Source: Streptomyces sp. DG2A-72 (lineage in GTDB: Bacteria > Actinomycetota > Actinomycetes > Streptomycetales > Streptomycetaceae). From it: a DNA stretch of 64,000 bases. Positions 14,379 through 55,693 of this stretch are shown here, in pieces. Every line of letters starts with the position of its first letter. Within the stretch, counting starts at the first letter, position 1. A program made the translations under genes and the position numbers. The stretch covers positions 1,116,001 through 1,180,000 of the forward strand of contig NZ_JASTLC010000001.1 of NCBI RefSeq assembly GCF_030499575.1. Direction: 5' to 3'. Below the pieces are notes generated by a model that saw only the letters and a program-made list of their open reading frames with translations, was not told where the DNA came from and ran no database searches.

Positions 14379-14394
14379 CAGCATCTGGATGCTG
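14379..14394. promoter_or_regulatory. Perfect palindrome, candidate TetR operator
   Basis: CAGCATCTGGATGCTG has 7-base arms around a 2-base centre. It lies between the divergent ABC exporter and TetR genes, about 38 bases before the regulator start and 37 before the exporter start. A site in this position could repress both genes. Confidence 0.6.
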
Positions 14395-14431
14395 GTTGTA
14401 TCATGACACAGCAGGAGCGGAAGGGGACACG

Positions 14432-15977: not shown

Positions 15978-16790
15978 TCATGGCTCACCGTCCTTCTCCT
16001 CGCGGTCATGTGTGCTGAGGGACACCGAACCCAGGACCCCGAACGAGGCATGTACCTCCTGGTTCGGCAGCAGGTCCACCGCGCCGGACCAGGAGCCGGC
16101 CAGCACGAGGTCACCGGCGCTGATGCCGGTGCCGAACCCTGCCAGGATCCGGACCAGGCATGCCACCGACTCCGCTGGATGCCCCATGACCGCCGAGCCG
16201 TTCCCGGTGTACTCGGTGTCGCCGCTGCGCAGTACCATCCGCGCCGCCGCCAGGTCGGTGGTGTCCGGTGGGACGCCGGAGCCGACCACGGCCGCGGCGG
16301 AGGACGCATTGTCGGCGACGGTGTCCACCAGGCCGATCTTCCATGCCTCGATCCGGCTGTCGAGCACCTCCAGGACCGGGCAGACCACTGTGGTGGCGTC
16401 GAGAACGTCCTGAGCCGTGACCTCGTGGCCACTGAGATCCTCCGCCATCCGGAAGGCGATCTCGCCCTCGACCTTCGGTGAGATGAACCTCCGCAGGTCG
16501 AGGAGGACGCCGTCGGGCAGGAGCATGCGATCGGTCAGGTATCCGAAGTCGGGATGGTCGATGTCGAACATCTTCTGGATCGCCTCACTGGTGGCTCCGA
16601 TCTTGAGCCCGGCCAGCGCGGCACCACTCGCCACTTCGAGCGCGCGCATCTCACTTTGGATCGCGTATGCGTCCGCCAGGCCGAGTTGCGGGTGCCGGAT
16701 CGACACGGGCGGCACCGGCCGGCGGGTTTCGGCGGCCTTCCAGAGCTCGGTGGCGAGTTCGCGGTGGAGTGCCCGCGCGGCGGTTGTCAT
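15978..16790 (-). CDS. 2-oxopent-4-enoate hydratase family protein (MhpD-like), ADH precursor dehydratase
   Basis: A protein of 270 residues of the MhpD/DmpE hydratase and decarboxylase family. The metal-binding acidic residues are present in KVEGEIAF (near 106-113) and EVLDSRIEAW. In meta-cleavage pathways these enzymes add water to an oxo-enoate. Here it probably runs as a dehydratase on the 4-hydroxy-2-oxo acid made by the neighbouring aldolase, giving the unsaturated chain of 2-amino-3,5-dimethylhex-4-enoic acid (ADH), as proposed for cyclomarin CymE-H. The ATG at 16790 overlaps the methyltransferase stop (ATGA). It is the last gene of the long core operon. Confidence 0.85.
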   Translation of the reverse strand: MTTAARALHRELATELWKAAETRRPVPPVSIRHPQLGLADAYAIQSEMRALEVASGAALAGLKIGATSEAIQKMFDIDHPDFGYLTDRMLLPDGVLLDLRRFISPKVEGEIAFRMAEDLSGHEVTAQDVLDATTVVCPVLEVLDSRIEAWKIGLVDTVADNASSAAAVVGSGVPPDTTDLAAARMVLRSGDTEYTGNGSAVMGHPAESVACLVRILAGFGTGISAGDLVLAGSWSGAVDLLPNQEVHASFGVLGSVSLSTHDREEKDGEP

Positions 16791-17770
16791 CTGCTCGCCA
16801 CGAAGAGCCGGCCCCCGGGCAGGCCGATCGGCACGGTCCTGGTCCGCGAGAAGCCCGCCTTGTCGAACGTGTCCAGCCACTCCTGCTCGGTGGGCAGAAG
16901 GACACTCATGAAAGTGGCGTGCAGATAGGTGAAGAGCGCGCTGAACTTGCGCTCCTGAGGCTGCTGCGCGTAGGAGACGGCGTCGGCCACGGCGAGGAAT
17001 CCGCCGGGGGCGAGCGCGTCGCGCAGGGCACCGAGAACGTTCTGGGCCGTGCGCTCGTCCGCCACGATGTCGTGCATGACGTAGCAGGCCAGGATGGCTT
17101 CCGCGCCCGCGACCGGCCCCGGGTCGTCGACCAGCGACTCGATCGGCCGCTCGGCAACTGTCAGGCGATCGTGCACCTCGCAGGCGCGGGCGGCCTCACG
17201 CGCCGCGGCGCAGGCGGCGCCGTTGCTGTCGACGGCCGTGCCGGTGCGTGCCGGATTCTCCTGCAGCAGCTTGATGAGCAGTGCGCCGGCCCCGGCGCCG
17301 AGGTCGGTCACCCGGAGCGCGCCGGACGCCACGACCTGTTCGATGATCTGCGGGTAGAACGCGCGTTCGCCGATCCACCGTGAGCTGACCGCGACCCGCC
17401 GTCCGTTGCGCCGGTGGGTGCGGGCGGCCTGGGCGGGGTCGGTCAAGAATGCACGGGCGTTGTCGATGAAAGGGCCGTTGGCGTGCATCGCCCAGGACAC
17501 GTACCCGGCCTGGTGGCGCAGGTCGGTGTAATCTGCGGCCGTCTGGAACTCGTCAGGGACCTCGGTCTCGACGATCAGGCCGGCGGCGAGCAGTGCCGCC
17601 AGGTAGGCGGTGACGCCGGCGACGGGGACGCCGGCCGTCTTGGCCATGTCCGAGGCGCTGAAGATCTCGCCGGAGTCCAGGACCTGGTCGGCCCCGATCT
17701 CGGCACCGATCTGCAGCAGTGCGGCGACCGCGGCCGCGTCGGCCACGGATTCCGGGGTGTGCCGTTGCAT
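16787..17770 (-). CDS. SAM-dependent C-methyltransferase, ADH precursor pathway
   Basis: A protein of 327 residues in the two-domain layout of plant-type O-methyltransferases and of the 2-oxoacid C-methyltransferases such as MppJ. An N-terminal winged-helix-like dimerisation domain (FSASDMAKTAGVPVAGVTAYLAALLAAGLI, about 40-70) is followed by a SAM Rossmann domain (VTDLGAGAGALLIKLL near 150). The likely role is methylation at C3 of the C6 2-oxo acid, which gives the 3-methyl branch of ADH. It sits 20 bases after the aldolase gene and overlaps the hydratase start, so the set is co-translated. The substrate assignment is inference from context. Confidence 0.8.
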   Translation of the reverse strand: MQRHTPESVADAAAVAALLQIGAEIGADQVLDSGEIFSASDMAKTAGVPVAGVTAYLAALLAAGLIVETEVPDEFQTAADYTDLRHQAGYVSWAMHANGPFIDNARAFLTDPAQAARTHRRNGRRVAVSSRWIGERAFYPQIIEQVVASGALRVTDLGAGAGALLIKLLQENPARTGTAVDSNGAACAAAREAARACEVHDRLTVAERPIESLVDDPGPVAGAEAILACYVMHDIVADERTAQNVLGALRDALAPGGFLAVADAVSYAQQPQERKFSALFTYLHATFMSVLLPTEQEWLDTFDKAGFSRTRTVPIGLPGGRLFVASR

Positions 17771-17790
17771 GGTTCCTTCCCTCTTGCCCG

Positions 17791-18833
17791 TCAGATGTGG
17801 TCAGCAGAGGTGTGCGGCAGGTCCGTGGGTGCCCGCTCGCCGGCCAGTTGCATGGCGACCTCGATGATGGTGTCCTCCTGGCCGGCCACCACCCGCCGCT
17901 TGCCCAGCTCGAGCAGGATCTCGCGGGGATCGACGTCGAAGCGCCGGCTCGCTCGCCGTACCGGCGCCGCGAATCCGGAGAACACCCCGGCTATGCCGCT
18001 GGCGATGGTGACGCTGTCGTTGGTCGGCACGTGCTTCACGAACCGTTCCTCGGCCGTCTGCGCCGCGTCCAGGGCGCCGAACAGTCTGATCCCTGTCTCC
18101 ATCTGCTCGACGTGCAGGTTGGCGGCGACTAGTTCGATCGGCGCGTTACCCGCCCCTGCGCCGAACCCGCGCGCCGTGACGTCCACGATGGAAGCCCCCG
18201 CCTGCATCGCGGTCATGCTGTTGATCACCGAGAGGCCGAGGTTGTTGTGGGCGTGGAAACCGATCGCGATGTCGAGCTTGTCGACCAGCTCACCGACCTT
18301 CTCCCGCACCTTCTGCGGCGTGTACGCGCCGGCCGAGTCCATCAGCACGACGGCCTCGGCGCCGTAGTCCTGCATGAGCTGCGCCTGTTCGACCAGCTTC
18401 TTCGCCGACGCCATGTGGCTCATCAGAAGCATTCCCTTCACGGGTACGCCCATGGCCCGCAGCATCGTGATCTGCTGGCGGGTGACGTCGGCCTCGGTGC
18501 AGTGGGCGCCCACCCGGACCTCGTCCACGCCGCTGTCGAGGGCGGGCTTGAGGTCGCGTTCGACGCTGGCGAAGCCGGGGATGGAGAGCACGCCGAGCCG
18601 GGAGTTGCGCAGTTCGGCCTTGGCGGCGCGCAGCATCTCCGCGTCGCTGATGGCCGCGATGCCGACCTGGATGGAGGAGGCGCCGAGGCCGTTGCCGTGC
18701 CCGACCTCGACGACGTCCACACCGGCCGACTCGGCCGCCCGCGCGTACGCGCTGATGTCCGCGCGGTTCAACTGGTGGGCGACCGCGTGGTTGCCGTCCC
18801 GCAGCGTCGTGTCGCAGATCTGGAGTTGCCCGC

Positions 18834-18837
<4 letters not shown>
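17791..18837 (-). CDS. 4-hydroxy-2-oxovalerate aldolase family protein (MhpE/DmpG-like)
   Basis: A protein of 348 residues, the normal length of DmpG/MhpE. The N-terminal CDTTLRDGNHA holds the Arg, metal-binding Asp and catalytic His of the family. The second metal site HAHNN is near residue 200, and the C-terminal communication domain that binds the dehydrogenase is present. Standard enzymes release pyruvate and an aldehyde. Here the reverse aldol (pyruvate plus isobutyraldehyde) would give the carbon skeleton of ADH. The start overlaps the dehydrogenase stop (ATGA), as in catabolic operons where the two proteins form a channelling complex. Confidence 0.9.
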
Positions 18838-21474
<2,637 letters not shown>

Positions 21475-21477
21475 GGT

Positions 21478-21693
21478 TCAGGACTCCTCGCCCATGGCGC
21501 GGACCAGGCTCCGCGGCCGCATGTCGGTCCAGTGCTCCTCGATGTAGTCGAGGCACGCCTGGTGCGCGTCCTCGGGGTGGGCGACGGTCCACCCGGCCGG
21601 CACGTCGATGGCCGCGGGCCACATCGAGTACTGACCCTCGTCGTTGACCAGCACCAGGAACGTTCCCTCGGTGTCGTCGAACGGGTTGCCCAT
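21478..21693 (-). CDS. MbtH-like protein
   Basis: A protein of 71 residues with the family core [24 protein letters not shown] and the conserved Trp pairs in the second half ([18 protein letters not shown]). MbtH proteins bind NRPS adenylation domains and help them fold and work. The start overlaps the NRPS stop as TGATG and has AAGGAGG upstream, so it is translated together with the NRPS. Confidence 0.95.
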
Positions 21694-24600
21694 CAGTTCT
21701 CCTCCTTGGTTGTCGCGTTGGCGGCGATGGCGGCCCGGAGGTGTTCCTCGAGAATCGGGCCGATCAGCTTCAGCGCCTCCGGCGTCATGATCGTGCTGTG
21801 GCCGGTCGGGACCGGGTGGTACGTGATGTCGCCGCCGACGAAGTCCCGCCACACCTCGGGGTCGAGCACCCGCTCCCGTTCCTCGGTCGCGCCGAAGATC
21901 AGCATGTCGGCGTCGACCCGTTCCGGCCGATGCCTGGTGGCGATGGAGATATTGCGGTGCAGGATCTCCATCAGGAGCCGGAACTCGTCCTCGGCGACGT
22001 TGCCCAGGACCGTGTTGGTGGTCCGGGCCAGCTCCGAGAACTGCGCGAAGGAGAGCTTCCCGCTCGGCAGGGTCGCCGGGTCGACGCCCAGCACCTCAAG
22101 GATGCCGGTGTAGACCTTGGCGGTGGCCTCGACGACCTGCTGCTGTTCCTCCTCGGTCAGCGGCCTGGCCGGTTCGGAGTCGAGGGCGACGATGAGTCCG
22201 ACCTGCTCCCCGGCGGCCTGCAGGCGGGCGGCCATGGCGTGCGCCACGACGCCGCCGAACGACTGCCCGAGCAGGTAGTAGGGCCCGGTCTTCTGCACCT
22301 GGCGCATTTCCTCGATGCAGTCGTCCGCGACCTGGATCAGGGTTTCCGGCAGCTCGTCGGGGTGGCTCAGCGCGCGGGACTGCAGCCCGTAGACGGGGAA
22401 GTCGGGGCTCAGATGCAGCAGCAGATCCGAGTAGGACCAGCAGATCGCCGCTCCCGGGTGGATGCAGAACAGCGGCGCCAGGCTGCCCCCGGTGCGCAGC
22501 GGGAGGAGTACGTCGAAGGCCTTGTCCGTGCCGTCGGAGCCGAGGTGCTCGGCGAGCTGGGCGACGGTGGGCCCGGCGAAGAACGTCCGGATCGGAACCT
22601 CCGTGCCCATCACCTCGGCGATGCGGGCGATGAGCCTGTTCGCCAGCAGGGAGTGGCCGCCCAGGTCGAAGAAGTTGTCCTCGACGCCGATCTGTCCCAG
22701 GTTCAGCACCTCGGCGAACAGCCCGCAGAGGATCTCCTCCTGCGGGGTGCGGGGGCCACGCCCCACCGGTGCCGCGATCTGCGGCACCGGCAACGCCTCC
22801 CGGTCCACCTTGCCGTTCGGCGTGAGCGGGAACTCCTCCACCGCCATCACCACCGCCGGCACCAGATGCTCGGGCAACGACCGGCGCAGATCCTCCCGGA
22901 TGCCGGTGACGTCGGTGTCGGGGCGGGCGGGGACCACGTACCCGAACAGCGCCAGGTCGCCCTGGCGGTCGGCTCGCACGGCCACGGCAGCCTGTGCCGC
23001 GGCCGGGTGCTTCGCCAGCGCGGCCTCCACCTCGCCGGGCTCCACCCGCATCCCGCGGATCTTCACCTGGTCGTCGGTGCGGCCCACGTACTCCAGCTCG
23101 AACGCGTGGTTCAGGCGGCCGATGTCCCCGGTGCGGTACATCCGCGAGCCTGCCGGGCCGTACGGGTCGGCGACGAACCGGCCGGCGGTCAGTCCGGGCC
23201 GGTGCAGGTAACCGCGGCCCACGGCCGGCCCGGCGACGTACACCTCGCCGTCGGTGCCGGGCGGCACGATCCGCAGGGCCGCGTCGAGGACGTAGATGCG
23301 CATCCCCGGGTTGGGCCGGCCGACCGTGACGCGCGCGCCGTCCGCGCTGTCAAGGGGATCTGTCATCGTGCAGGCGACGGTGGTCTCGGTCTGGCCGTAG
23401 ACGTTGACCATGCGTCGCTCCGGCGACCAGCGGGCGGCGAGATCGGGCGTGAGGACCTCCCCGCCGAGGAGCAGTCCGCGCAGCTCGGTGAGCCGGCCCG
23501 GCGCGTCGGCCGGCAGGCTCGCCAGCACCGACGGCAGCGTCACCAGGTGCGTGATCCGCTGCTCGGCCAGCACCCGGGCCAGCGCCTCGCCCGCGAGAAG
23601 GCCCGGCTCGGGAAGGACGAGCGTGCCGTGCGCGGCGAACGCGACGACGAGGTCCATGACCGAGGCGTCGAAGCTCGGTGAGGAGAGCTGCAGGACGCGG
23701 GAGCCCGGCCCGAAGCCCCAGCGGTCCCGCCACGCCTCGGCCGCGCCCGCCAGGCCCGCGTGGGTGATCACTGCGCCCTTGGGCCGGCCGGTCGAACCCG
23801 AGGTGTAGATGACGTAGGCGGGGTGGTGCAGGCCGAGGGCGGCCGAGCGATCCCGGTCGGTCGGGTTCGTGTCCGGCAGGCCCTCCCACTGCGCGACGGT
23901 GGCCGGTTCGTCGATGTCGATCAACGGCTGCTCCGCGCCGAGGCGGGCGGCCCCCGAGGCATCCGTCACGACCAGTTCCGGCCGGGCGTCCGCGCAGAGG
24001 TACGCCACCCGGTCGGCCGGGTAGGCCGGGTCGATCGGCAGGTACGCCGCCCCGCTCTTGGCGATGGCCCAGATGGCGACGACCTGCCGGACACTGCGCG
24101 GCAGCAGCACGGCGACGAGGTCCTCCGGGCCCGCGCCCCGCTCGATCAGCGCCCGCGCCATCCGGTTCGCCCGGCTGTTCAGCTCGGCATAGGTGAGGCC
24201 GGCCGCGCCGTCGCTCACGGCGATCGCGGACGGGTCGGCCGTCGCCCAGGTTTCGAACAGCCACGGCAGCGTTCCCGGTACGGGATCCGCAAGGTTGACT
24301 TCCGCCCCGCTCGTCAATTCAAGTCCTCCGATGGGTTGGTGGGGAGAGTCGACGACTTCACGCAGCAGCCGGCCGAACTCGTCGAGGAAGGCGTCGATGG
24401 TCGCGCCGTCGTAGAGATCGGTGGCGTACTCGGCGACGAGGATCAGTCCGCCGGGCGCGCCACGGTCGTCGAACGTCTCGATCGCGTTGACGGTGAGATC
24501 CACCCGGGCCACGCCGGTCTCGACCCCGTCCAGCTGCGGCCGCGCGGTCAGGCCGGCCAGCTCGAACTCGGCCTCCGGTGTGTTCTGCAGCACGAGTTGC

Positions 24601-27600
24601 ACCTGGAAGAGCGGGTGGTGCGCGGGCGACCGGTCGGGGTTGAGCTTCTCCACCAGGTGGTCGAAGGGGATGTCCTGATGGGCGTACGCGGCCAGGCTCG
24701 TGTCGCGCACCTGCTCCAGCAGCTGGACGAAGCTCGGGCCGCCCGAGGTGTCGATGCGCAGCACCAGCGTGTTGATGAAGAAGCCGATCAGGTCCTCGAG
24801 GGCGTCGTCGACCCGTCCCGCGATCGGTGCACCCACCGGGATGTCGGTGCCGGCCCCGCTGCGGCTCAGCTGCGCGCCGAGCGCCGCCTGGAGGGCCATG
24901 AACAGTGTGGATCCGTTGCCGCGGGCCAGCGCTCGCAGGGCCTGGTGCAGATCTGCGTCGAGATTGCGGGTCAGCGTCGCACCCTGGTGACCGGCCTCCT
25001 CCGGGCGCGGCCGGTCGGTCGGCAACGTCACCAGCCGCGGCAGGCCGGCCAGTTGTTCCCGCCAGTAGGCGAGCTGGCGGCCGATCCGGCTGTCCGGGTC
25101 GGCGTCGTCGCCCAGCATCCTGCGCTGCCACAGCGCGTAGTCCGCGTACTGCACCGGCAACGGCGCCCAGGACGGTCCACGCCCGGCTGCGCGTTCCTCG
25201 TACGCCGTCGTCAGGTCACGGGTCAGCGGCCGCAGCGACCAGCCGTCCGCGGCGACATGGTGCACGACCAGCAGCAGCACCCATTCGTCGCGGCTCGTAG
25301 CGAACAGCCACGCCCGCAGCGGGATCTCCCGCGACAGGTCGAACTCGTGCCGGGAGGCGTCCCGGAGCACCTGCGCCAGGTCGTCCTCGGACACCTCGCG
25401 CACCGGCAGGTCGATGTCGCCGACGTCAAGGATCTGCTGGTGCGGCACTCCACGGCGCTCGGCGAAGACGGTGCGCAGTGCCTCGTGCCGGGCCACCACG
25501 TCGCCCAGGGCGGACCGCATCGCGGCCACGTCGAGGGCACCGGACAGCCGCACCGCCAAGGGCGAGTTGTACGTCGCCGACGAACCCTCCAGCTTGTGCA
25601 GGAACCACAGCCGCTGCTGCGCGAACGACAGGGGCAGCGCCTTGGGCCGGGGCTCCGGCACAAGGGCGGGCGCCATGCGGTCCGCGTCCGACCCGTGTGC
25701 CAGCACCACGGCGAGCCGGGCGGGTGACGGCGCGGCGAACACCTGCTGCAGAGGCACCTCGATACCCAGGACGGCGCGGATGCGGCTGGTCAGCCGGGTG
25801 GCCAGCAGCGAGTGGCCGCCCAGGTCGAAGAAGCTGTCGTCGACACCGACCCGGGGCAGGCCGAGGAGGTCGGCGAACAGCTCGCACAGGATCTCCTCGT
25901 ACGGGTTGCGCGGACCGCGGTCCTGGGCGCCGGTGATCATGACCTCGGGTTCCGGCAGGGCCTTGCGGTCGATCTTCCCGTTCGGGGTGAGCGGGATCCG
26001 CTCGATCGGCGTGATCGTGGCCGGCACCATATGGTCGGGCAGCAGCGACTTGACCGTGCCGCGCAGCTCGGACACCAGCTCACCGGCGGTCCGGGCGAGG
26101 GCGGGCACGTTGGCGACCGCTTCCGGGCTGCTCGGGCGGTACACGTCCGCGAGTGGTACGTCCTCGCCGGTGCCGGTGAGCAGCACCGCGTCGTAGGCGT
26201 CCCGGCTCCGCGGCGACCAGGTCAGCACCGCCCGCCGGCCGCGGTCCGCGGCCCATTGGCGTACCCGCTCGGGGTGCAGCCGCGGATCGGTCGTGTCGGC
26301 CAGCCGCGGGTTGGGGATCCGGGTCAGCCGCGCCGGTGCCGTCACCTCGTCCAGCTCGGTGACGTCGCGGCCCCAGACCAGCTCGGGCAGTTCCCCGACC
26401 GGTTGCGCGGCGCCGGTGTGCAGCACCACCTCGTATCGGTACGCGGTCAGCTCGTTGTCCGCGTCACCCCGTTTGAGCAGCACCTCGACGCCGCTCAACC
26501 GGGGATGCCGGAAAGCGGTGAAGAACTCGGGTGCGAGGAGCAGTTCCTTCTCCACGGCCACCGCGTGGTCCACGGCCGACGTGCCCGATCCGGGATCCCG
26601 GAACCGCTGCACCGCCGTGTGCAACGCCCGCAGCAGACCGTGGTGCCGTACGTCGCCGACGACCACCCGGCCGCCGTCGGCCAGCAGATCGATCGCCTTG
26701 CCCAGCACGTCGCGCAGGTAGTCGGCGCTCGGGAAGTACTGGACGACCGAGTTCAGCACGATGGTGTCGAAGTGGCCACTGGGCAGCCCCGAGACGTCAT
26801 GAGCCGGTCGGCATCGCAGGTGCACGTGGTCCCAGTTCTGTTCCCGCGCGTACTCCCGCAGTCTCTCCACGGCGGCCGCCGAGAAGTCCGTCGCCCAGTA
26901 CTCCTCGCTCCGCCGAACCAGCGGGATCATCACCAGGCCGGAGCCCGCTCCGATTTCGAGTACCCGGCGAGGGCCGAACCGCGCCACCTGGTCCACCGCG
27001 GACCGCTGCCACTCCCGCATCTCGTCGATCGGGATGGGCGCGCCGGTGAAGGAGCTGTTCCAGCCCGCGAAATCGGCGCCCGGCTCGCGCGACAGCCCGC
27101 GGTAGACCTGGTGGTAGATGCTGCGCCATTCGTCGAGCTGCTCGTCGACGTCCGCGGTGGATCCGCCCTCGGCCGGCACGACATAGGCGGCGAGCGAGAC
27201 GGCACCCGAGCGGTCCTGCCGCGGCACCACGACGGCACGTGCGACCGATGCCTGCGCGGCGAGGACGCGTTCCACCTCGCCGGGTTCCACGCGGAAGCCG
27301 CGAATCTTCACCTGTTCGTCGGAGCGGCCGAGATACTCCAGGTCGCCCTCGGCGTTCCACCGGACCAGGTCACCGGTGCGGTACATCCGCGACCCGGCCG
27401 GCCCGTACGGATCGGCGAGGAAACGCGACGCCGTCAGGGCCGGACGCCGCCCATAGCCCCGTGCCACCCCGGCACCCGCGATGTACAACTCCCCCGGCAC
27501 ACCCGGTGCCGCCAGCCCGAGGGACTCGTCCAGCACATACAGCCGGGTGCCCAGAGCCGGTTTGCCGATCGGCACCGGGGGTCCACTCAGTTGGCCGGTC

Positions 27601-45331: not shown

Positions 45332-45379
45332 GCTCACTTCCATCGGGTCGTCGGGGCGGCGAGATCGTGATCAGGGGCG

Positions 45380-46174
45380 TCAGGTGCGGTCGAGCGGACC
45401 GCGGTCGACCTCGAGCGGCGTGTGGTCGCGGCCTACGAGGTGCTCCGGGCGTGGGGCGCCGACCGGGCGCGGCGCGGCCGACACCGGGTTGTAGGTGAGG
45501 ATCAGCAGGCGGCGGGCGAACGGGGAGACGTTGGTCCCGGACCCGTGGACGATCTGCGAGCTGAACAGCAGCACGCCGCCACGCGCACCCTTCGGGCTGA
45601 CCATCTCGTGCTGCTTGACCAGATCGGCGAGTTCGGCCGGGGTCAGGGAGTACGCGTCCGGGTCGATGTGGCCGGTGCCGTGGTCCTGCGCGGACGCGCC
45701 GCGTTCCAGCGTGCCGAGCCGGTGCGAGCCGCGCAGGAAGATCACCGGGCCGTTGAACTCGGTGACGTCGTCGAGGAAGAGCGCGACGTTCACCTGCGAG
45801 GCGGCCGGCATGTTGTCGGCGTCGCGCCAGACGATGTAGTCCTGGTGCCACGCCCACCGCTCGCCGCCGAACGCCTGCTTCGAGTTGATCTTCATCTGGT
45901 GTACGTAGAGGTCCTCGCCGGTGATCTGCCGGGCCGGGCCGAGCAGCCGCTCGGTGCGTACCAGCCGCTCGAAGACCGGGTGGCGGGTGTGCGAGGCGTA
46001 GATCGACCGCGGGGTGACGCCGTCGTTCTCGGTGATCAGACACGGGCCCGGCACGCGCTGGTCCTCGGCCAGCGCGATGCACAGGGCATCGATCTCATCG
46101 CCGGAGAACGCGTCCTCCAGCAGCACGAATCCGTCGTTGTGGAAGCTGGCGAGCTGTTCCTCGGTGAGTTTCAT
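45380..46174 (-). CDS. Fe(II)/2-oxoglutarate dioxygenase, phytanoyl-CoA hydroxylase family
   Basis: A protein of 264 residues in the PhyH/EctD-like family. Iron ligands are His and Asp of WAWHQDYIVW (near 106-112) and the distal His of LFSSQIVHGSGTN (near 205), followed by an Arg that can hold 2-oxoglutarate (ARRLLILTYN). Enzymes of this group hydroxylate free or carrier-bound amino acids; GriE, for example, hydroxylates leucine at C5. The likely task here is leucine delta-hydroxylation for residue 2, a step given to a dioxygenase in cyclomarin work as I recall it. The ATG at 46174 follows GGAGAG. It lies 48 bases before the NRPS start in the same operon. Confidence 0.85.
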   Translation of the reverse strand: MKLTEEQLASFHNDGFVLLEDAFSGDEIDALCIALAEDQRVPGPCLITENDGVTPRSIYASHTRHPVFERLVRTERLLGPARQITGEDLYVHQMKINSKQAFGGERWAWHQDYIVWRDADNMPAASQVNVALFLDDVTEFNGPVIFLRGSHRLGTLERGASAQDHGTGHIDPDAYSLTPAELADLVKQHEMVSPKGARGGVLLFSSQIVHGSGTNVSPFARRLLILTYNPVSAAPRPVGAPRPEHLVGRDHTPLEVDRGPLDRT

Positions 46175-46251
46175 GGCTCTCTCCGCGTGGACCTGTCGGC
46201 AGGACGTGGTGACCGTCGATCGCGTCATGTGCGGCGACCCGAGGTGTCGGA

Positions 46252-47460: not shown

Positions 47461-47548
47461 ACACGCTCACACTGCCCCCGCCGTCGTGCAGTCAGAAGAT
47501 TCCTGGCAATCCTTGCGACGGCGGGTCGGTCACCGCACCAGGGGTCCA

Positions 47549-47567
47549 CCCCAGAAGGACCCCAGGA
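47549..47567. promoter_or_regulatory. Paired CCCCAG motifs in a divergent P450 promoter region
   Basis: CCCCAGAA at 47549 and CCCCAGGA at 47560 are spaced 11 bases apart, one helical turn. A mirrored CCAGGGG lies at 47538-47544. The rest of 47461-47680 has no gene. The motif recurs upstream of the LAL regulator, so it may be a cluster operator. Confidence 0.4.
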
Positions 47568-47680
47568 TGAACGCACGAGGACTCTGCGTAGTCCGGGGTT
47601 GTGGCGGCGAGCACGGGCGCGGGTACATTGCGGATCCGATGCCGAACTTCCGGTACGCCTGGGTCAGACGGAGGGCAGCC

Positions 47681-48958
47681 GTGAGTGGTCAGCCTGTCAG
47701 CGATCAGCAGAATTCGAGCGACGTACATGCGCCGCCCAACGTGATTTCCGACCCGCACGCCGTGTACACGCATATGAGGGAGCAGGCAGCAGCCTGTCCC
47801 ATGCGCTCGCTCGACGGGTCACTGATGTGGGTCGTCGGACGCCATGAGGGCGTACGGTCGATGCTCGCCGATCCCCGGTTCGCGAACGATCCGGCCTCGG
47901 TCCCGGGCGGCGCGCCGCTCATGCAGGTCAACGCGATGCGGAACCTCGGCCTCGCCGAGGAGCTCATCCCGTATCTCGCGGACACGCTGCTCGACAACGA
48001 CGGGGCGAGCCACAGCAGGCTGCGCCGTCTGGTGGCGCCCGCGTTCACCGCGCGGCGCATCCTCAACCTGCGTCCGCGCATCGAGCGGCTCACGGACGAT
48101 CTCCTGGACGGGCTGGCGGAACACGCCGAGGACGGCGTCGTCGACTTCCTCAGCCTGTTCGCCTACCCGCTGCCCATCACGGTGATCTGTGAACTCGTCG
48201 GGGTGCCGATGGCCGACCGCCCCGCCTGGCTGCGCTGGACCCACGCGCTCTCGTTCGAGCAGGAGAAGCTGGGGGAGACGCTCGGCCCGCTCGTGGACTA
48301 CACGCAGGCGCTGGTCGGGCGTCGCCGGTCCCAGCCGGCGGACGACCTGATCAGCGAACTGATCCGGGCGCAGGACGGCGACCGTCTCACCGACCGGGAA
48401 CTGGTCACGATGGTGCTCAGTCTGGTCATCGCGGGGCACGACACCACGGCCAACTTCCTCGCCAACAGCGTCTGGGCGCTGCTGACCCACCCCGACCAGC
48501 TGGCGCTGGTCCGCGCCGACCCGGAGCTGATGCCGCAGGCGGTGCACGAGTTGCTGCGCTGGTGCGGGCCCGTCCTGGTGTCGCGGATGCGGTACGTCAC
48601 CGAGGACGCCGACCTCGGGTGGGCGGCGTTTCAGGCGGGGGACGCGGTGATGGCCGCGCTGAGCGGCGCCAACCACGATCCGCGGGAGTTCCCGGAGCCG
48701 GAGCGCCTGGACGTCACCCGGCAGAACCGGACCCGCGGGGAGGCACACGTGTCGTTCGGCGCCGGGCCGCACTACTGCCTCGGCGCCGGGCTGGCACGCC
48801 ACCAGGCAGAGATCGCGCTGGGACGGTTGCTCGCCCGCTGGCCCGCGCTGGCCCTGGCCGTGAGCCCCGAGGAGCTGAACTGGCAGCCGGTGTCCGGCAT
48901 GCGGAAGCTCGAGCACCTGCCGCTACGGCTGAACGGGCCCAGCGACTCGTCCGCCTGA
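47681..48958 (+). CDS. Cytochrome P450, divergent from the core operon
   Basis: A protein of 425 residues. It has I-helix VIAGHDTTANFL near 250, ExxR in HELLRW near 287, and haem loop FGAGPHYCLGAGLAR near 360. The GTG at 47681 was chosen because of GGAGG seven bases upstream; the frame is open further back without a better ribosome site. As one of three P450 genes in the cluster it probably performs one of the Trp, Phe or prenyl oxidations. Confidence 0.88.
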   Translation: MSGQPVSDQQNSSDVHAPPNVISDPHAVYTHMREQAAACPMRSLDGSLMWVVGRHEGVRSMLADPRFANDPASVPGGAPLMQVNAMRNLGLAEELIPYLADTLLDNDGASHSRLRRLVAPAFTARRILNLRPRIERLTDDLLDGLAEHAEDGVVDFLSLFAYPLPITVICELVGVPMADRPAWLRWTHALSFEQEKLGETLGPLVDYTQALVGRRRSQPADDLISELIRAQDGDRLTDRELVTMVLSLVIAGHDTTANFLANSVWALLTHPDQLALVRADPELMPQAVHELLRWCGPVLVSRMRYVTEDADLGWAAFQAGDAVMAALSGANHDPREFPEPERLDVTRQNRTRGEAHVSFGAGPHYCLGAGLARHQAEIALGRLLARWPALALAVSPEELNWQPVSGMRKLEHLPLRLNGPSDSSA

Positions 48959-49011
48959 CGGCGGAGCGGCGGACGCGGGCATCGCCCTCCGCCGGTTTCC
49001 GCCGGCCGGTC

Positions 49012-49569
49012 TCACGGGTCGCCGGCGTCGGCGTCGTCCGCGCGGGCCAGTCCTCCGGACACGGGGCGGGTCGCGTCGAGGCCGCGCTCGCGCCACCGCT
49101 CGCTCTCGACGGGATCGAGATGCCGGCCCGCCCAGCCGTCGAGGTCGTGCGCGTACGCCTCCGGCGCATAAGCGGCCTGAGGGACCGTCAGCTCCGGTAG
49201 GTCCGCGCCGGGCTCGTGCCGCAGCGGGTGGGCCAGACCGGCGCGCCAGCGCTGCTCCTCCGGCAGCCATCGCTCGGCGACGGACTCGGTCCGGATGCCG
49301 ATCGCGACGGCGATCTCGGTCCAGTCGGAGCCGTTCTCCCGTGCGTTGAGGACGGCGGCCTCCACCAGCTTGTCGACGTGCGAGCGCACCCGGAGTGCCT
49401 GGAGCAGCAGTTCCTGCGCGGTGCGCCGGTCGTCGTCGACGGTGGGCACCAGGCGGAGCGCCTCGTCGACGGTGTCGCGGGCCCGGTCGGCGAGGACCAG
49501 GCGTGCCAATGCGGCGGTCGTGTACGGGTTCGGTGGCCTATCGGACACGGAGGACTCCGGATACGGCAC
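49012..49569 (-). CDS. Hypothetical HTH-like protein at the end of the tailoring operon
   Basis: A protein of 185 residues. The middle (about 65-110) has VDKLVEAAVLNARENGSDWTEIAVAIGI, which resembles helix-turn-helix proteins common in Streptomyces that use a SWAEIGEALGV-type helix. The C-terminal half is charged and proline-rich. It follows the thioesterase by 43 bases, so it is probably co-transcribed. Whether it regulates the cluster is unknown. Convergent with the P450 gene at 47681. Confidence 0.55.
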   Translation of the reverse strand: MPYPESSVSDRPPNPYTTAALARLVLADRARDTVDEALRLVPTVDDDRRTAQELLLQALRVRSHVDKLVEAAVLNARENGSDWTEIAVAIGIRTESVAERWLPEEQRWRAGLAHPLRHEPGADLPELTVPQAAYAPEAYAHDLDGWAGRHLDPVESERWRERGLDATRPVSGGLARADDADAGDP

Positions 49570-49612
49570 GCGTGGAACGTGTGCCCGGACGGTGTGGCGG
49601 CATCGGGCGATT

Positions 49613-50377
49613 CTATCCGCGGGCCCAGTCCAGACCGTCCTGCGCGCAGTCCGCGGTCACCGCCTCGCAGACCGCGGCCGGGTCGTCATGCAGGAAGAAG
49701 TGGTTGCCGCCGAAGACGCGCACCCGGGCTCCCGGGGCCACCTGCCGCCACCCCTGAAGCGTCTCGACCGGGACGTCGTGGTCCGCCGCGGCGCCGTACA
49801 CCGAGACCGGCGACTTCAACGGGTACGCAAAATCCGGTGTGTACCGCTCGATCAGGTCCAGGTCGGCGCGCAGCCCGGCCAGGACCTGCGGGCCGAACTC
49901 GGGATCGGTCAGGAGGCTTTCGTCCGTACCGCCGAGCCGTCGGACGTAGGCGGTCATGCGCTCGTCGGACGCTCTGAGCACATCGGGCGGAAAGGTCCGC
50001 CGGGAGCCGGGAGGCGCAGCAGCGCACAGCACCGCACGCTCCGGGAGCGGCCCGGCCGAGTTCTCCAGCCGGCGCACCGTCTCCGCGGCGATCAACGCAC
50101 CGAGACTGTGGCCCAGCAGGATCCACGGCTCCGCAAGCTCGCGCACCGTGCTCGCGAGGGCGGCGGCGCGGGACTCGATGCTGGAGCGGCGTTCCGACCC
50201 GTCGGGCCGTTCCCAGTGCACGGCCCGGACCGCGATGCCGCGTGGGCCGAACACCCGGTGCCAGGAGTGGAAGGCCACGGCGCTGCCACCGGCGTGGGGC
50301 ACGCAGACCAGCGTCCACTTCGCCTCCTGCCGCTGCGCTCCGCCCAGCGTGACGAGCCTTGCCCGCTCGGCGCTCAT
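49613..50377 (-). CDS. Type II thioesterase
   Basis: A protein of 254 residues of the GrsT/RifR family. The N-terminal CVPHAGGSA oxyanion motif, nucleophile GHSLGA near residue 93, and catalytic His in GGNHFFLHDD near 227 are all present. Such enzymes free NRPS carrier domains from wrong or stalled acyl groups. Its start overlaps the methyltransferase stop (ATGA). Its presence beside P450 and methyltransferase genes ties this operon to the NRPS. Confidence 0.92.
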   Translation of the reverse strand: MSAERARLVTLGGAQRQEAKWTLVCVPHAGGSAVAFHSWHRVFGPRGIAVRAVHWERPDGSERRSSIESRAAALASTVRELAEPWILLGHSLGALIAAETVRRLENSAGPLPERAVLCAAAPPGSRRTFPPDVLRASDERMTAYVRRLGGTDESLLTDPEFGPQVLAGLRADLDLIERYTPDFAYPLKSPVSVYGAAADHDVPVETLQGWRQVAPGARVRVFGGNHFFLHDDPAAVCEAVTADCAQDGLDWARG

Positions 50378-51231
50378 CGGCCCGCCTCCTCGTGGGCGTC
50401 GTGCGTCACGACCGGTTCCCGCGAGCGCTCCGCCCGGTAGGCGTAGACCTCGTACAACTCGGTGCCGCGCAGTGCGGGGTCCTGCCGCACCCGCAGCGAG
50501 AAGCCCACGTCCCGCAGCAACTCGCTCAGCTGTGTGAGCCGGCCTCCCTCGTCGTGGACCTCCGCCACGACAGCGCCGATGCGCGGCCAGTCGGCGGCAT
50601 CGACACCGCGCAGGACGTCGAGTTCCGCACGCTCGACGTCCACCTTGAGCAGCGCGACGGATCGGAGATCCTGCTCACTCATGAGGTCGGAGACCGTCGT
50701 GACCGGGACCTGGATCGTCCGGCCGTCGTGCAGTCCGTCGATCATCATGTCGACGGCTTCCTCGTCGAGACCGCCGTGGCGCAGGAAGGTCCTGGTGAGG
50801 GCGTCGTCGGCCGCTCGGTCGGCGTACAGGCCGGAGTTGCCGGGGGCTGCCGGGTAGTAGGTGAAGTCCTGGACACCGGACGCGGCTCCCACGGCGGTGC
50901 GCACCGCGGTCGCTCCCGGGACGTGGCGGGTGATGTTGTCCCGCAGACAGGCGAAGACGTCCGGAACCGGTTCCGCGGCGACGATCCGGAGCGTGCGCTG
51001 CGCGTCCGTGAACGCGATCGACACCAGCCCGACGTTGGCGCCGATGTCGAGAACCGAGTCGTGGGGGCGCAACTCCCGTGCGGCGAGCCCGTACAGGCCG
51101 CTGCCGGTCGCCTCCCGCCAGATGAGCAACGCCTCCGCGGGGCTGGTGCACGACACCCGTCGGCCGTCCGGGAGGCTCACCTCCTGCCGCGCCGCGCCGG
51201 GTACGGCGTGCGCGGTCCGTTCCTCGCTCAT
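50374..51231 (-). CDS. FkbM-family SAM methyltransferase, candidate beta-hydroxy-Phe O-methylase
   Basis: A protein of 285 residues. Motif I is VLDIGANVGLVSIAF near residue 60, followed by IVAAEPVPDVFACLRDNI (motif II region) and ALLKVDVERAELDVLRG, the KxDxEGxE-like element of FkbM proteins in slightly altered form. Family members often O-methylate hydroxyl groups of natural products. It is 28 bases after a P450 gene and overlaps the thioesterase gene, so a hydroxylation then methylation pair, giving beta-methoxy-Phe, is the simplest reading. The ATG follows CGGAGGAAG. Confidence 0.85.
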   Translation of the reverse strand: MSEERTAHAVPGAARQEVSLPDGRRVSCTSPAEALLIWREATGSGLYGLAARELRPHDSVLDIGANVGLVSIAFTDAQRTLRIVAAEPVPDVFACLRDNITRHVPGATAVRTAVGAASGVQDFTYYPAAPGNSGLYADRAADDALTRTFLRHGGLDEEAVDMMIDGLHDGRTIQVPVTTVSDLMSEQDLRSVALLKVDVERAELDVLRGVDAADWPRIGAVVAEVHDEGGRLTQLSELLRDVGFSLRVRQDPALRGTELYEVYAYRAERSREPVVTHDAHEEAGR

Positions 51232-51259
51232 GATCGCTTCCTCCGGCTCGCGCGATGGG

Positions 51260-52468
51260 TCATGCGGCGACGAGTCGCACGGGCAGCGCGTCGTAGCCCC
51301 AGATCAGGATCGACCGCGTCCGCCGCGGCGGACCGGTCAGCTCGGCGCCACGCACCCGCCGCAGCAGTTCCTCGAACAGAACGGTGAGCTCCCGCGTGGC
51401 GAGTGCCGCGCCGAGGCAGTAGTGGGGCCCGGCGGCGAAGGCCAGATGGGGGTTGGGCCGCCGGGTCACGTCGAATCGGTCGGGGTCCGGGAACACGGCG
51501 TCGTCGCGGTTGCCCGCGGCCAGCCACAGCGCCACCTGGTCGCCGGGGGCCAGCGCGTGACCGGCGATCTCCACCGCGGCGGTGGACGTGCGCAGCACGT
51601 GCATCGCGGGGCTGGTGAACCGCAGGATCTCCTGCACCGCGGTCGGCAGCAGATCCGGGTCCTCGCGCAACGACTCCCACTGCGATGGACTCCGCACCAG
51701 TGCCAGCAGGCCGCCGACGCTCGCGTGCCGTGTGGTCTCGTTGCCTCCCGACACGAGCCCGTCACAGTTGAGGAAGATCTCCTCATCTGTGAGGGGAACA
51801 CCGTCGACCGCGCCGTGTGCCAGCGCGGTGACGATGTCCTCCTGGGGTTCGCGTCTACGGCGGGCCAGCAGTTCCTCGTAGTACGACAGGATGTCCACGT
51901 GTGCCGCGGCCGACGCGAGCGGGTCGGTTCCCGTTCCCGCGCCGAAGGCCACCATGGTGCGCTCCAGCATGAAGTCCCGGTCGCCGGGCGGCACGCCGAG
52001 CATGTCGCAGATCACCGTGAGCGGCAGCCTGGCCGCGACCCGGGTGAAGTCGCACTCGCCGGCCTCCAGGGCTTCGTCCAGGACGGCGGTGACCGTGTCG
52101 CGCATGGTGCGCTCCAGCCGGGCCACCATGCGCGGGGTGAAGGCGCCGCTGACGATCCGTCGGATCCCGCCGTGCCGCGGCGGATCGGTGATGATCAGCA
52201 TTTTGCCCGAGGCCGCCGCCGTCGCGGCGGGGTTCTGGTCCAGCCGCATGCCCTGCTGGGAAGTGAAGTTCCGGGTGTCCTTGACGACCCGGGAGATCTC
52301 GGCGTGCGACAGCACGGCGTGGAACCGGCGACCGTCGTACTCGCCCTCGTGCACGGGAGCTGCCCGCCGCATCCGCTGCCAGAGCTCCTCGGGGCGTCCC
52401 TGAGCGTAGAGGTCCGGGTCGCAGAGCTCCATCGAACAGGGCGCGGTGACCGGCCGACCACGTGGCAT
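51260..52468 (-). CDS. Cytochrome P450 paired with the O-methyltransferase
   Basis: A protein of 402 residues. It has I-helix LVSGGNETTRHAS near 235, ExxR in QEILRF near 278, and haem loop FAAGPHYCLGAALATREL near 343. The ATG follows AGGAG. It leads the operon P450 - FkbM methyltransferase - thioesterase - small protein. On context it is the best candidate for beta-hydroxylation of Phe ahead of O-methylation. It diverges from the LAL regulator. Confidence 0.88.
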   Translation of the reverse strand: MPRGRPVTAPCSMELCDPDLYAQGRPEELWQRMRRAAPVHEGEYDGRRFHAVLSHAEISRVVKDTRNFTSQQGMRLDQNPAATAAASGKMLIITDPPRHGGIRRIVSGAFTPRMVARLERTMRDTVTAVLDEALEAGECDFTRVAARLPLTVICDMLGVPPGDRDFMLERTMVAFGAGTGTDPLASAAAHVDILSYYEELLARRRREPQEDIVTALAHGAVDGVPLTDEEIFLNCDGLVSGGNETTRHASVGGLLALVRSPSQWESLREDPDLLPTAVQEILRFTSPAMHVLRTSTAAVEIAGHALAPGDQVALWLAAGNRDDAVFPDPDRFDVTRRPNPHLAFAAGPHYCLGAALATRELTVLFEELLRRVRGAELTGPPRRTRSILIWGYDALPVRLVAA

Positions 52469-52813
52469 ACCGATGGCTCCTGGAGTGAGGGGACGAGCCG
52501 ATTGTGTCCGACGTCGGTCCCCGGCAGAACCCCAGAAATTTTCATGCGGTGTGCGGCCCGATTCCCGGGGTGCCGACCGAAACTCTGGGGTGCGGTGGCG
52601 GCCTGGGGCGACCGGCCGCCGCCCGGCCCCTTGTGACCATTTCGCGCCAATTTAAAGACGGGCGAGCAACCTATCGGCTGCCGAGACAGGTGACCGCCGA
52701 CACCCGCGGGACCAGCAGACTATAGTCCGACCCTCGAAAATTATCCTGGACGCTCGGCCAGGGGTCGTGTAATCTGAGTTCGCTCCTGAGTTCAGAAATA
52801 AAGTAGCAGTGAA
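52469..52813. promoter_or_regulatory. Divergent region between P450 operon and LAL regulator
   Basis: 345 bases without a gene. It holds CCCCAGAA at 52530-52537 and its mirror CTCTGGGG at 52583-52590, about 60 bases apart. The 100 bases ahead of the regulator are markedly AT-rich for this genome (AATTTAAAG, GAAAATTATCC, GTGTAATCTG), as expected for a controlled promoter. Confidence 0.5.
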
Positions 52814-55693
52814 ATGTTCTCGGCCAGGCGATACGGGGAAGCACTGACCGTGGTAACTCACTTATTCAACAGCTCACACACCGCACTTCTCGAACGGCAA
52901 GCGGAAATATCCGAGATCGAGAGAAGACTCGACGATCTGCGCGGCGGATTCGGTGGAGTTATCGCAGTCGAAGGTGCACCAGGGACAGGCAAGTCAAGCC
53001 TCCTGCACCTCCTGCACGGCAAGGCCGTCGACAATAAATTCCTGGTACTCCATGCGAGAGGGAACGAATTCGAGGGCTCATTCGCCCTGGGAGCGGTCGC
53101 GCAACTGATTGAATCCGCGGCCGAGGACCTTCCGGGCGGAGATATGCCCGGCCGACTGCACGGTTCACGCATCGCGCGCCTGCTGCACGGCAAACTGCCG
53201 GACGAGACGCACGCAGCGGAATGGCACTCACTGCTCCACGAGTTGCACCGCATCTTTCTCGACCTCGCCAGTGACCAGCGCCTCGTACTCGTGGTCGACG
53301 ACGCACAACTGGCCGATCTGCCCTCATTACGATTCCTCAGTTACCTCGCCGCCCGTGTCGGGCGCAGCCCCATCGTGCTGACCGTCGCCGTGGAACCCCG
53401 CGGCCCCAGTCCGGCCGCCGACCTGCTGGGCACCGTGGTCACCTCTTTCGAATCGACCGTGCTCCGGCCGGCGCCGCTGAGCCTGCGGGCCCTGGAGCAG
53501 GTCGTCGCGGAGACCGTCGGCGGACCCGACCCCACGGCGATCGCCGAGTCGATCTTCGAGGCGACCGACGGCAACCCGATGCTGGTGCGAGCCTTGCTCG
53601 ACGAGGCGGCCACCGGCCCCGGGCGAACGGCCAGGACCGGCCGGGACTGGCTGACCAAACGCGCGCCCCGGAGTCTCATGCGCTGGATCATCCGCAAGCT
53701 GCGCAGCCTCCCGGGGCCGTCCCTCGAACTGGCTCAGGCGGTCGCGGTGCTGGGCCGCGCGACGGAACCATGGGTGGTGGAGCGGACCACCGGCCGCACC
53801 GACACCGGAGTCGAGAAGGCACTCGCCGCGCTGATCGACGCGGAGATCCTGGTCGACGGCCCGGTGCTGCGGTTCGCGCAACCGCTGGTGCGCACGGCGG
53901 TCCAGGACAGCACCCCGCTGCTCACCCGCGGCCAGTTGCACGCCCGCGCGGCGCGAGCACTGGCCACCACCGGGGCCTCACCGGAGCAGATTGCCGGACA
54001 TCTGCTGGAAGCGCCCACCCAGGGCGACCGGCGGACCGTCAGAAGCCTGCTGGACGCCGCCGCAGCAGCGACAGCGCGGGGCGGCGAGCCGGAGACCATC
54101 CCCTACCTGCGCCGTGCCCTGCGCGAGCCACCGGCCGGCCGCGATCTGCCGATGGTCCTGACCCGCCTCGGCACGGCGGAGCTGTCGGTCGACCACGAGG
54201 CGGCGGCCGGACACCTCAGGGAAGCACTGGAGCACACGTCCGACCCGGACGCCCGCGGCGCCGTCGCGCGGGACTTGGCCTGGGCGCTCGCGGCCGGCTC
54301 CCGGTTCGAGGAGGCCGTCACCGTGCTGGCCGACACCATCGCAGAACTTCCGGTGGGGGATGCCGTCGCGGACCTGGACGACGCGTTGTCCTGGATCGGC
54401 AGGCTGTCCCCCGGGGCCCGTGAGCTCCGCCGACAACGCCTGGCCCAGATCCGGGAGCAGTCGGCCGGGACAAGCTCCCACGGGAGCGTTCACCTCCTTC
54501 TCGACCAGTTGTGGAACGGAACGGACGCCACGCGGATGGCGGACTCGGCCGACGACGTGCTGCGCCGGGCCGGCCTGCCCACCGAGAACGGCGTCGGCTG
54601 GGGTGCGGCCCTCACCGCGACCTGGTCCCTGGCTGTCTGCGACCGGCTCCCGCAGGCACGCCGCGCCGTACGGGCGCTGGCTGACGAGGCCCGGCGCCGG
54701 GGAGTCCACCTGTTCCACCTCGACCACTGCCTGCAGGCGTACGTCGAGCTGCGACTCGGGCAGGTGTCCGCCGCCGCCGAGCTCGCCACCACGGCCCTGG
54801 AGGCGAGCGAGTCGGCGGGCCGCCCCACGATCGCGCAACCGATGGCGGCGGCGGCCCTGGTCGAGGCGCTGATCGAGCAGGGCGAATTGGAGCGGGCCAC
54901 CACTGAGCTGTCGACACGTGAGCTGCTCGACGTCGAGGGTGACACATCCGCCCACCTCCCCCTGCTGCGCGCCCGTGGACGGCTGCGGCTCGCGCTCGGG
55001 CAGACCGACGCGGGGGTGGCCGACCTGGTGCGGGGACGAAGACTCGACGCGGAACTCGGCCCGGCGGCGGGGTCGGTCGGTACGTGGGCACCGATGATCA
55101 CGGCCCTCCACCGCAGCGGACGGGTGCGGGACGCGCGCGAGCTGGGCGAGGAGGAGCTCGCCCGTGCGTACGCGTTCGGAGCCGCTCGCCCCCTGGCCGT
55201 CGTGTTGCGGGCCCTGGCCTCGACCGCGGCCCCGGACCGCGCCCTGCTCCTGCTGGAGGAGGCCGTCGACCTGCTGGACGGCTCACCGGCACTCCTCGAA
55301 CGGGCCCACACCCTGTACATCCACGGCAGGGCGCTGGGCAAGGCCGGCAAGACCTCGACGGCACGCGAACAGCTCCGGCTCGCCGTCGAACTGGCCGGTG
55401 ACTGCGGGGCGTACCCCCTGCACAGCCGGGCCCGGGAGGAGTTGCTGTCGCTCGGCGCCCCCGCCCGCGGCCCGGGACGCCGCAAGCGGTCTCCGTCCAC
55501 GCTGACGCCCGCTGAAGAGCGGGTGGCGGCCCTGGCCGCCGAGGGCCTGAGCAACCGGGACATCTCGCAGGCGCTCTTCGTGACGGTCAAGACAGTGGAG
55601 TGGCACCTCACGCAGGCGTACCGGAAGCTCGGCGTCGACTCGCGGGAGAACCTCCCCTGCGCTCTCGGAACCTCGTTACCAGAGCCTCACTGA
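52814..55693 (+). CDS. LuxR-family ATPase regulator (LAL), bldA-dependent by TTA codons
   Basis: A protein of 959 residues, usual for large ATP-binding LuxR (LAL/MalT-like) activators. An N-terminal AAA-type domain has Walker A EGAPGTGKSSLLHLL near residue 55 and Walker B-like RLVLVVDDAQLADLPSL near 157. A long TPR-like helical middle part follows. The C-terminal LuxR HTH (LTPAEERVAALAAEGLSNRD then KTVEWHLTQAYRKLGV) lies at about 895-950. It carries three TTA codons (52862, 53327, 55676), so translation should need the bldA tRNA and be confined to late growth. The ATG has little ribosome site; a GTG at 52850 after GGGGAAG is an alternative. It is probably the pathway activator. Confidence 0.9.
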   Translation: MFSARRYGEALTVVTHLFNSSHTALLERQAEISEIERRLDDLRGGFGGVIAVEGAPGTGKSSLLHLLHGKAVDNKFLVLHARGNEFEGSFALGAVAQLIESAAEDLPGGDMPGRLHGSRIARLLHGKLPDETHAAEWHSLLHELHRIFLDLASDQRLVLVVDDAQLADLPSLRFLSYLAARVGRSPIVLTVAVEPRGPSPAADLLGTVVTSFESTVLRPAPLSLRALEQVVAETVGGPDPTAIAESIFEATDGNPMLVRALLDEAATGPGRTARTGRDWLTKRAPRSLMRWIIRKLRSLPGPSLELAQAVAVLGRATEPWVVERTTGRTDTGVEKALAALIDAEILVDGPVLRFAQPLVRTAVQDSTPLLTRGQLHARAARALATTGASPEQIAGHLLEAPTQGDRRTVRSLLDAAAAATARGGEPETIPYLRRALREPPAGRDLPMVLTRLGTAELSVDHEAAAGHLREALEHTSDPDARGAVARDLAWALAAGSRFEEAVTVLADTIAELPVGDAVADLDDALSWIGRLSPGARELRRQRLAQIREQSAGTSSHGSVHLLLDQLWNGTDATRMADSADDVLRRAGLPTENGVGWGAALTATWSLAVCDRLPQARRAVRALADEARRRGVHLFHLDHCLQAYVELRLGQVSAAAELATTALEASESAGRPTIAQPMAAAALVEALIEQGELERATTELSTRELLDVEGDTSAHLPLLRARGRLRLALGQTDAGVADLVRGRRLDAELGPAAGSVGTWAPMITALHRSGRVRDARELGEEELARAYAFGAARPLAVVLRALASTAAPDRALLLLEEAVDLLDGSPALLERAHTLYIHGRALGKAGKTSTAREQLRLAVELAGDCGAYPLHSRAREELLSLGAPARGPGRRKRSPSTLTPAEERVAALAAEGLSNRDISQALFVTVKTVEWHLTQAYRKLGVDSRENLPCALGTSLPEPH

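Follow-up and report, generated by a model that had tools for sequence, protein, structure and literature searches.

A locus of very probable cyclomarin type with an interrupted synthetase frame in Streptomyces sp. DG2A-72

Introduction

Cyclomarins kill mycobacteria via ClpC1. The cyclomarin (cym) cluster is known from Salinispora arenicola CNS-205 and Streptomyces sp. CNB-982, and the available parts of PMC8068612 and PMC8401383 describe it with a heptamodular peptide synthetase that N-methylates in modules 2 and 6, a dioxygenase, cytochrome P450s (P450s) and an O-methyltransferase. Cyclomarazine is given, in the same part of PMC8401383, as a product of modules 1 and 2. Metamarin (met) clusters follow the same prenyl-Trp heptapeptide plan and share the gene pair for Phe oxidation and methylation; in the part of PMC8068612 that deals with them they have neither the cassette for 2-amino-3,5-dimethylhex-4-enoic acid (ADH) nor the epoxidase. 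For the related plan of ilamycin, excerpts of PMC5577134 report that deletion of IlaR removed the prenyl epoxide and assign IlaL to oxidation of a Leu methyl group. Here we analyse a 64,000-nucleotide stretch ("the window", positions 1116001-1180000 of contig 1) of the genome of Streptomyces sp. DG2A-72 (G000; 10.58 Mb, three contigs), which contains a locus that we assign with high confidence to the cyclomarin type, an already known kind of pathway. It shares with the cym cluster a CymD-type prenyltransferase, the ADH cassette, the heptamodular plan, N-methylation in modules 2 and 6, and the dioxygenase, P450 and O-methyltransferase families, and differs from it in that the synthetase is interrupted in this sequence.

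Results

Biosynthetic genes of the locus

Between positions 15978 and 52468 of the window, all biosynthetic genes lie on the minus strand except one, a divergent P450 gene, and a regulator gene follows them; to the left, the locus extends to ~9666. Presence in relatives refers to the seven clusters introduced below.

15978..16880, minus strand: 2-oxopent-4-enoate-hydratase-like enzyme of the ADH set (7/7 relatives)
16787..17770, minus strand: C-methyltransferase of the ADH set (7/7 relatives)
17791..18837, minus strand: DmpG-like aldolase of the ADH set (7/7 relatives)
18834..19724, minus strand: acetaldehyde-dehydrogenase-like enzyme of the ADH set (7/7 relatives)
19721..20842, minus strand: CymD-type Trp N-prenyltransferase of the DMATS type (open reading frame (ORF) annotated as far as 20959, with the true start at about codon 40)
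20884..21474, minus strand: isopentenyl diphosphate (IPP) isomerase (PRK03759 and TIGR02150 above cut-off)
21478..21693, minus strand: MbtH-like protein (7/7 relatives at 87-99%)
21693..29192, minus strand: second synthetase ORF, 2499 aa, with the rest of condensation domain 6 (C6), A6-MT6-T6, C7-A7-T7 and TE
29168..45343, minus strand: first synthetase ORF, 5391 aa, with A1-T1, C2-A2-MT2-T2, modules 3-5 (to T5) and the start of C6; frame break near the ORF end
45380..46228, minus strand: PhyH dioxygenase, probable Trp beta-hydroxylase (role after the available part of PMC8401383)
46252..47460, minus strand: P450, probable prenyl epoxidase
47660..48958, plus strand: P450, probable N-Me-Leu2 hydroxylase (ORF annotated from 47375)
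49613..50377, minus strand: type II thioesterase (PF00975)
50374..51231, minus strand: FkbM-type methyltransferase, probably for beta-O-methylation of Phe4
51260..52468, minus strand: P450, probable Phe4 beta-hydroxylase, adjoining the FkbM gene

The prenyltransferase is identical to CymD (PDB 6os3) at 314 of 373 aligned residues (84%), and the four-gene ADH cassette is present in full. A preliminary description of this DNA, made from its letters and ORFs, had listed a prenyltransferase with an IPP isomerase, a four-gene meta-cleavage-like set, three P450s, one dioxygenase and one O-methyltransferase. Each of these was recovered, as a DMATS-type prenyltransferase and an IPP isomerase, as hydratase-, aldolase- and acetaldehyde-dehydrogenase-like genes with a methyltransferase, and as PhyH and FkbM proteins beside the three P450s. 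The MbtH-like protein, the type II thioesterase, a 185-aa protein and a left-hand cassette at 9666-15529 were absent from that description.

Synthetase domains and codes

Pfam places seven adenylation (A) domains in the synthetase, five in ORF 29168-45343 and two in ORF 21693-29192, and confines methyltransferase (MT) domains to modules 2 and 6, so that the earlier reading of seven modules with N-methylation at these two places holds. The seven condensation (C) stretches correspond to the six domains C2-C7, with C6 cut by the frame break; this leaves no epimerase-like extra domain, again as first read. The heptamodular plan, the two N-methyltransferases, the module-4 code given below and the terminal thioesterase (TE) are all found, spread across two ORFs.

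Codes of nine positions each were anchored on motifs, with a numbering that we take to follow the GrsA convention. That of module 4, DAWTVAAVC, is presumably Phe-type, as in the preliminary description. The others, which were compared between clusters rather than decoded, are DVWTHGGVA (A1), DALHSGAIA (A2), DVFFVGLVA (A3), DALFVGLVA (A5), DALLIGAVV (A6) and DAMVLGVVA (A7); A3 and A5 differ at 2/9 positions.

Seven relatives share the core

A prenyltransferase scan of genome contigs returned six loci at 83-97% and a seventh at 39%. The seventh (L007, Streptomyces sp. CB02959), in whose 15.6 kb no other query gene matched, was left out, and G706, with a prenyltransferase at 83%, came from a further search, which covered 354 genomes around Pseudosporangium. 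The resulting seven relatives are S. abikoensis, S. humidus, S. speibonae, Streptomyces sp. GESEQ-4, CHD11 (G160), Pseudosporangium ferrugineum and G706. Fourteen core genes (the ADH set of four, prenyltransferase, MbtH, synthetase, dioxygenase, three P450s, 185-aa protein, thioesterase and FkbM) occur in 7/7 at ~60-99% identity, and their order is common to the window, GESEQ-4, S. abikoensis, S. humidus and two S. speibonae contigs. Three relatives have a full-length IPP isomerase, one has a fragment and three have no match. Synthetases are seen in part in S. speibonae, CHD11 and Pseudosporangium, whose loci are divided between contigs. Among 392 sampled congeners, prenyltransferase matches of some kind occur in 83, and matches of at least 86% only in the window's own genome and CHD11. 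In the S. humidus locus (L062-L064), kept among the relatives, a single synthetase ORF of 5811 codons encodes only five A domains, which probably reflects a collapsed assembly of repeated modules.

Probable roles of the oxidases

A rufomycin-type cluster in a congener (G013; L128-L130, G013:C1:7640000-7699700) served as a control. It has a synthetase with seven A domains, methyltransferases in modules 2 and 6 and a nitric oxide (NO) synthase gene inside the cluster, a plan that is that of ilamycin as set out in excerpts of PMC5577134. Together with the seven relatives, it fixes the conserved core and suggests roles for the P450s. The control P450 directly before the synthetase, in the place of IlaR, is 54% identical to the window P450 at 46252-47460, and the first control P450, in the place of IlaL, is 44% identical to that at 47660-48958; these are probably the epoxidase and the Leu hydroxylase, respectively, by homology and position. 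The third window P450 (51260-52468) has a best match of 33% in the control and stands beside the FkbM gene, which makes it the natural candidate, and the probable enzyme, for Phe4 beta-hydroxylation. With the PhyH protein, the enzyme families expected for prenyl epoxidation, Leu oxidation, Phe oxidation and methylation, and Trp hydroxylation are all represented.

Predicted product and pathway

The preliminary description had proposed that the locus makes cyclomarins, cyclomarazines or a near analogue. The 84% identity to CymD, the ADH set and the 14 core genes in 7/7 relatives support this proposal, with the product itself a prediction. Since metamarin clusters have neither the ADH cassette nor the epoxidase and this locus has both, a cyclomarin A-like heptapeptide is the best prediction; a cyclomarazine from modules 1-2 is possible. 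In the proposed pathway, the CymD-type enzyme would N-prenylate Trp, with the IPP isomerase helping to supply dimethylallyl diphosphate (DMAPP), and the four-gene set would condense pyruvate with a valine-derived aldehyde, dehydrate the product and C-methylate it to ADH. The MbtH-assisted synthetase would then join prenyl-Trp, N-Me-(hydroxy)Leu, Ala (or Val), Phe, Val, N-Me-Leu and ADH. Cyclisation of the chain would fall to the TE domain. The dioxygenase, the three P450s and the FkbM methyltransferase would provide beta-hydroxy-Trp, the prenyl epoxide, hydroxy-Leu and beta-methoxy-Phe. The product would act on mycobacterial ClpC1.

Several points weigh against this assignment. The product is deduced from genes and sequence; the likeness to the S. 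arenicola and CNB-982 clusters is known from the PDB entry for CymD and published descriptions, not from the deposited clusters; and the choice of Ala over Val at position 3 and of ADH for A7 follows from gene content and conservation, not from a decoded pocket. To these is added the broken reading frame of the synthetase, which makes peptide production by this strain uncertain.

The break in the synthetase frame

The frame is interrupted at ~29170-29220, within C6, where the two ORFs overlap in different frames. The cluster had been called complete, which is true of its gene content but does not hold for the synthetase as sequenced. Uninterrupted synthetase ORFs are found in S. abikoensis (7911 codons) and Streptomyces sp. 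GESEQ-4 (7896 codons), and in G706 both halves align within one frame, as judged from alignment coordinates. As these close relatives are uninterrupted, the break reflects a flaw either in this copy or in its sequence, and real decay or a sequencing error could account for it.

If the mutation is real, the cluster would be decaying and would yield no full peptide here, at most cyclomarazine-type products of modules 1-2. The position of the break within C6, where the relatives read through, speaks for decay, but the remaining core genes are open and highly conserved. In an alignment to GESEQ-4 (36,661 columns), frame-changing gaps in genes fall mostly into compensating groups, and three are unpaired. 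The first is the synthetase break itself; the second falls in the 5′ extension annotated for the prenyltransferase ORF, and the third in the thioesterase gene, three codons before its end. Across these 36.7 kb there is no second unpaired break in core domains. Moreover, the break lies in a G/C-rich stretch, and assemblies often err in such stretches. We regard decay as an unlikely explanation, though one to be taken seriously.

Comparison with metamarin and rufomycin

The same heptamodular plan and tailoring set would also serve for a product of the metamarin or M10709 type, in which Val occupies position 7 or 3. The A3 and A5 codes are so close that Val at position 3 is possible. Against such a product stand the ADH cassette and the IlaR-like epoxidase, both present here and both absent from metamarin clusters as far as PMC8068612 covers them in the part available; we reject the metamarin reading and hold this class of products to be very improbable.

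A rufomycin/ilamycin-type cluster, with nitro-Tyr and 2-amino-4-hexenoic acid (AHA) made by a polyketide synthase (PKS), is refuted as far as gene content goes and has next to no probability: although the locus shares with the control the nine-position A1 code, the heptamodular plan with N-methylation in modules 2 and 6, an MbtH-like protein and a P450 before the synthetase, its A2-A7 codes differ and that of module 4 is of the Phe type, a search of this genome for NO synthase, present in the control, gave no match, and the ADH cassette stands where the PKS would be, with no PKS among the genes assigned between 15978 and 52468 (no PKS-aimed search was made). The preliminary description had named closest similarity to this family as the result that would tell against a cyclomarin cluster. 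The prenyltransferase is instead 84% identical to CymD, against 44-45% to its control counterpart, and window A, C, MT and TE domains gave 47-64% against the control, a comparison at the level of paralogues. A further genome with a prenyltransferase at 47% (G351) entered through the NO-synthase search only.

Host ClpC1 and the left-hand cassette

In the available part of PMC10030653, F2, F80 and E89 of ClpC1 are described as critical for cyclomarin, and mycobacterial ClpC2 as a cyclomarin sponge and repressor. The host ClpC1 keeps F2, F80, K85 and E89, so that self-resistance through changes at these contact residues is unlikely. A ClpC2-like protein is encoded in the host by a 264-codon ORF (L039, G000:C1:5806500-5811500; 2133-2924, minus strand). 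Its gene lies far from the cluster, at 5.81 Mb, and it has Tyr at the counterpart of ClpC1 F80, which makes it a weak candidate for self-resistance.

To the left of the ADH set lies a cassette with the following genes, together with a TetR-family regulator gene described in the next section.

9666..10253, minus strand: histidine phosphatase, branch 1 (PF00300; near the cluster in 7/7 relatives, 58-97%)
10336..11868, minus strand: protein with PPDK_N and PEP-utilisers domains (Pfam; NCBIfam PRK05878 above cut-off; ORF annotated 10336-12297, homology from near codon 144)
11859..12485, minus strand: 208-aa winged-helix-like protein (42-43% to 218-aa relatives; 7/7 relatives)
12592..13818, minus strand: ABC-2 exporter permease (PF01061; true start probably later; 7/7 relatives)
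13386..14384, minus strand: ABC exporter ATPase, DrrA-like (PF00005; TIGR01188 above cut-off; 7/7 relatives)

The second of these, the putative phosphotransferase, is without the PPDK barrel; its relatives are of the long type in four clusters and of a two-domain type of 380-434 codons in three. The name of the winged-helix-like protein is our reading of its fold, and its 218-aa relatives gave no Pfam match. The ABC pair, the winged-helix-like protein and the phosphatase are near the cluster in 7/7 relatives and the TetR protein in 5/7. The cassette takes two positions: S. speibonae, S. humidus, S. abikoensis and GESEQ-4 have it on the ADH side, and CHD11, Pseudosporangium and G706 on the other side, adjoining the third P450. 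Beside the G706 cassette (L102, ~5900-8200), short tandem-like repeats form a long array, with the EHPHVRGED/STPTCVGRT pattern in every frame read.

Phosphatase homologues of at least 60% occur in 11/392 congeners. Among these, a cym cluster is present in G000 and CHD11, cym fragments in G359 and the rufomycin-type cluster in G013; one more (G120) is a 4.9-kb contig. Six phosphatase-carrying congeners have the set of TetR, winged-helix-like protein, phosphotransferase and phosphatase, with the ABC pair only in G225, and the 30-40 kb fetched around these stand-alone copies, searched for synthetase domains alone among cluster types, gave no match. In G013, the synthetase is followed after ~2.6 kb by a histidine phosphatase at 69%, with a more distant ABC pair, and the stretch fetched gave no phosphotransferase or winged-helix match; excerpts of PMC5577134 report ilamycin production to be unaffected by deletion of orf(+1) to orf(+5), a group of genes that may or may not include this phosphatase. 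The phosphatase was found in 4/6 congeners counted as carriers against 7/386 (Fisher p = 5e-6), a post hoc test, as the 60% cut was picked after the list had been seen, and one in which two of these six carriers (G351, G175) have distant prenyltransferases only. In G359 (L133, L134), both cassette types occur with the cym fragments (P450, FkbM, thioesterase and 185-aa gene), the long type being reduced to fragments, and its genome has no prenyltransferase match.

The stand-alone copies and the rufomycin-type neighbourhood point to a wider cassette that keeps company with cyclomarin clusters, and the former count against a cyclomarin-specific role. As a guess that we consider quite doubtful, the cassette could be a recruited self-protection module, in which reversible phosphorylation of a peptide hydroxyl before export would spare the unaltered host ClpC1. 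The kept contact residues would fit such phosphorylation and export; our literature search found no work linking PPDK, histidine phosphatase and self-resistance. If the guess is right, the exporter, phosphotransferase and phosphatase could help to account for self-protection in producers whose ClpC1 contact residues are unaltered, and copies in other Streptomyces without a peptide cluster would represent a general resistance or stress module.

Regulators and the 185-aa protein

The remaining genes are two regulators and a small protein of the core.

14372..15529, plus strand: TetR-family regulator (PF00440; 5/7 relatives)
49012..49569, minus strand: 185-aa protein of no known family, with a helix-turn-helix-like stretch (7/7 relatives)
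52814..55693, plus strand: large LuxR-type regulator, resembling the large ATP-binding regulators of the LuxR family (LAL-like; PF13191 and PF00196; three TTA codons)

The LAL-like and TetR proteins would control the cluster, and the TTA codons of the former make bldA dependence possible; a scan of 20 other genes found no TTA in the biosynthetic genes and only one in all, in the phosphotransferase ORF as annotated, where it falls within the doubtful 5′ extension. The LAL-like regulator is conserved at 82-94% in four Streptomyces and at 40-45% in CHD11, Pseudosporangium and G706, where it lies between two P450 genes.

At the default cut-off, neither Pfam nor NCBIfam gave a family match for the 185-aa protein, its best sub-threshold matches being DUF2774 in Pfam (E 0.078) and the sequence of RelI in the PDB (E 0.075). 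Its AlphaFold2 model is poor (mean pLDDT 62), and Foldseek with this model gave no matches at E <= 0.001. Its helix-turn-helix-like stretch weakly resembles one in the host ClpC2-like protein (hhalign from a shallow alignment; 44 columns, probability 80%, E 1.4e-5). The match in S. speibonae spans 116 residues. Eleven homologues were found in the protein collection, five with named organisms, one of which is Solwaraspora sp. WMMB335. The host check covered the other four named organisms, and a CymD-type prenyltransferase is encoded in all four: GESEQ-4, S. abikoensis, Streptomyces sp. NPDC049916 and CG1.

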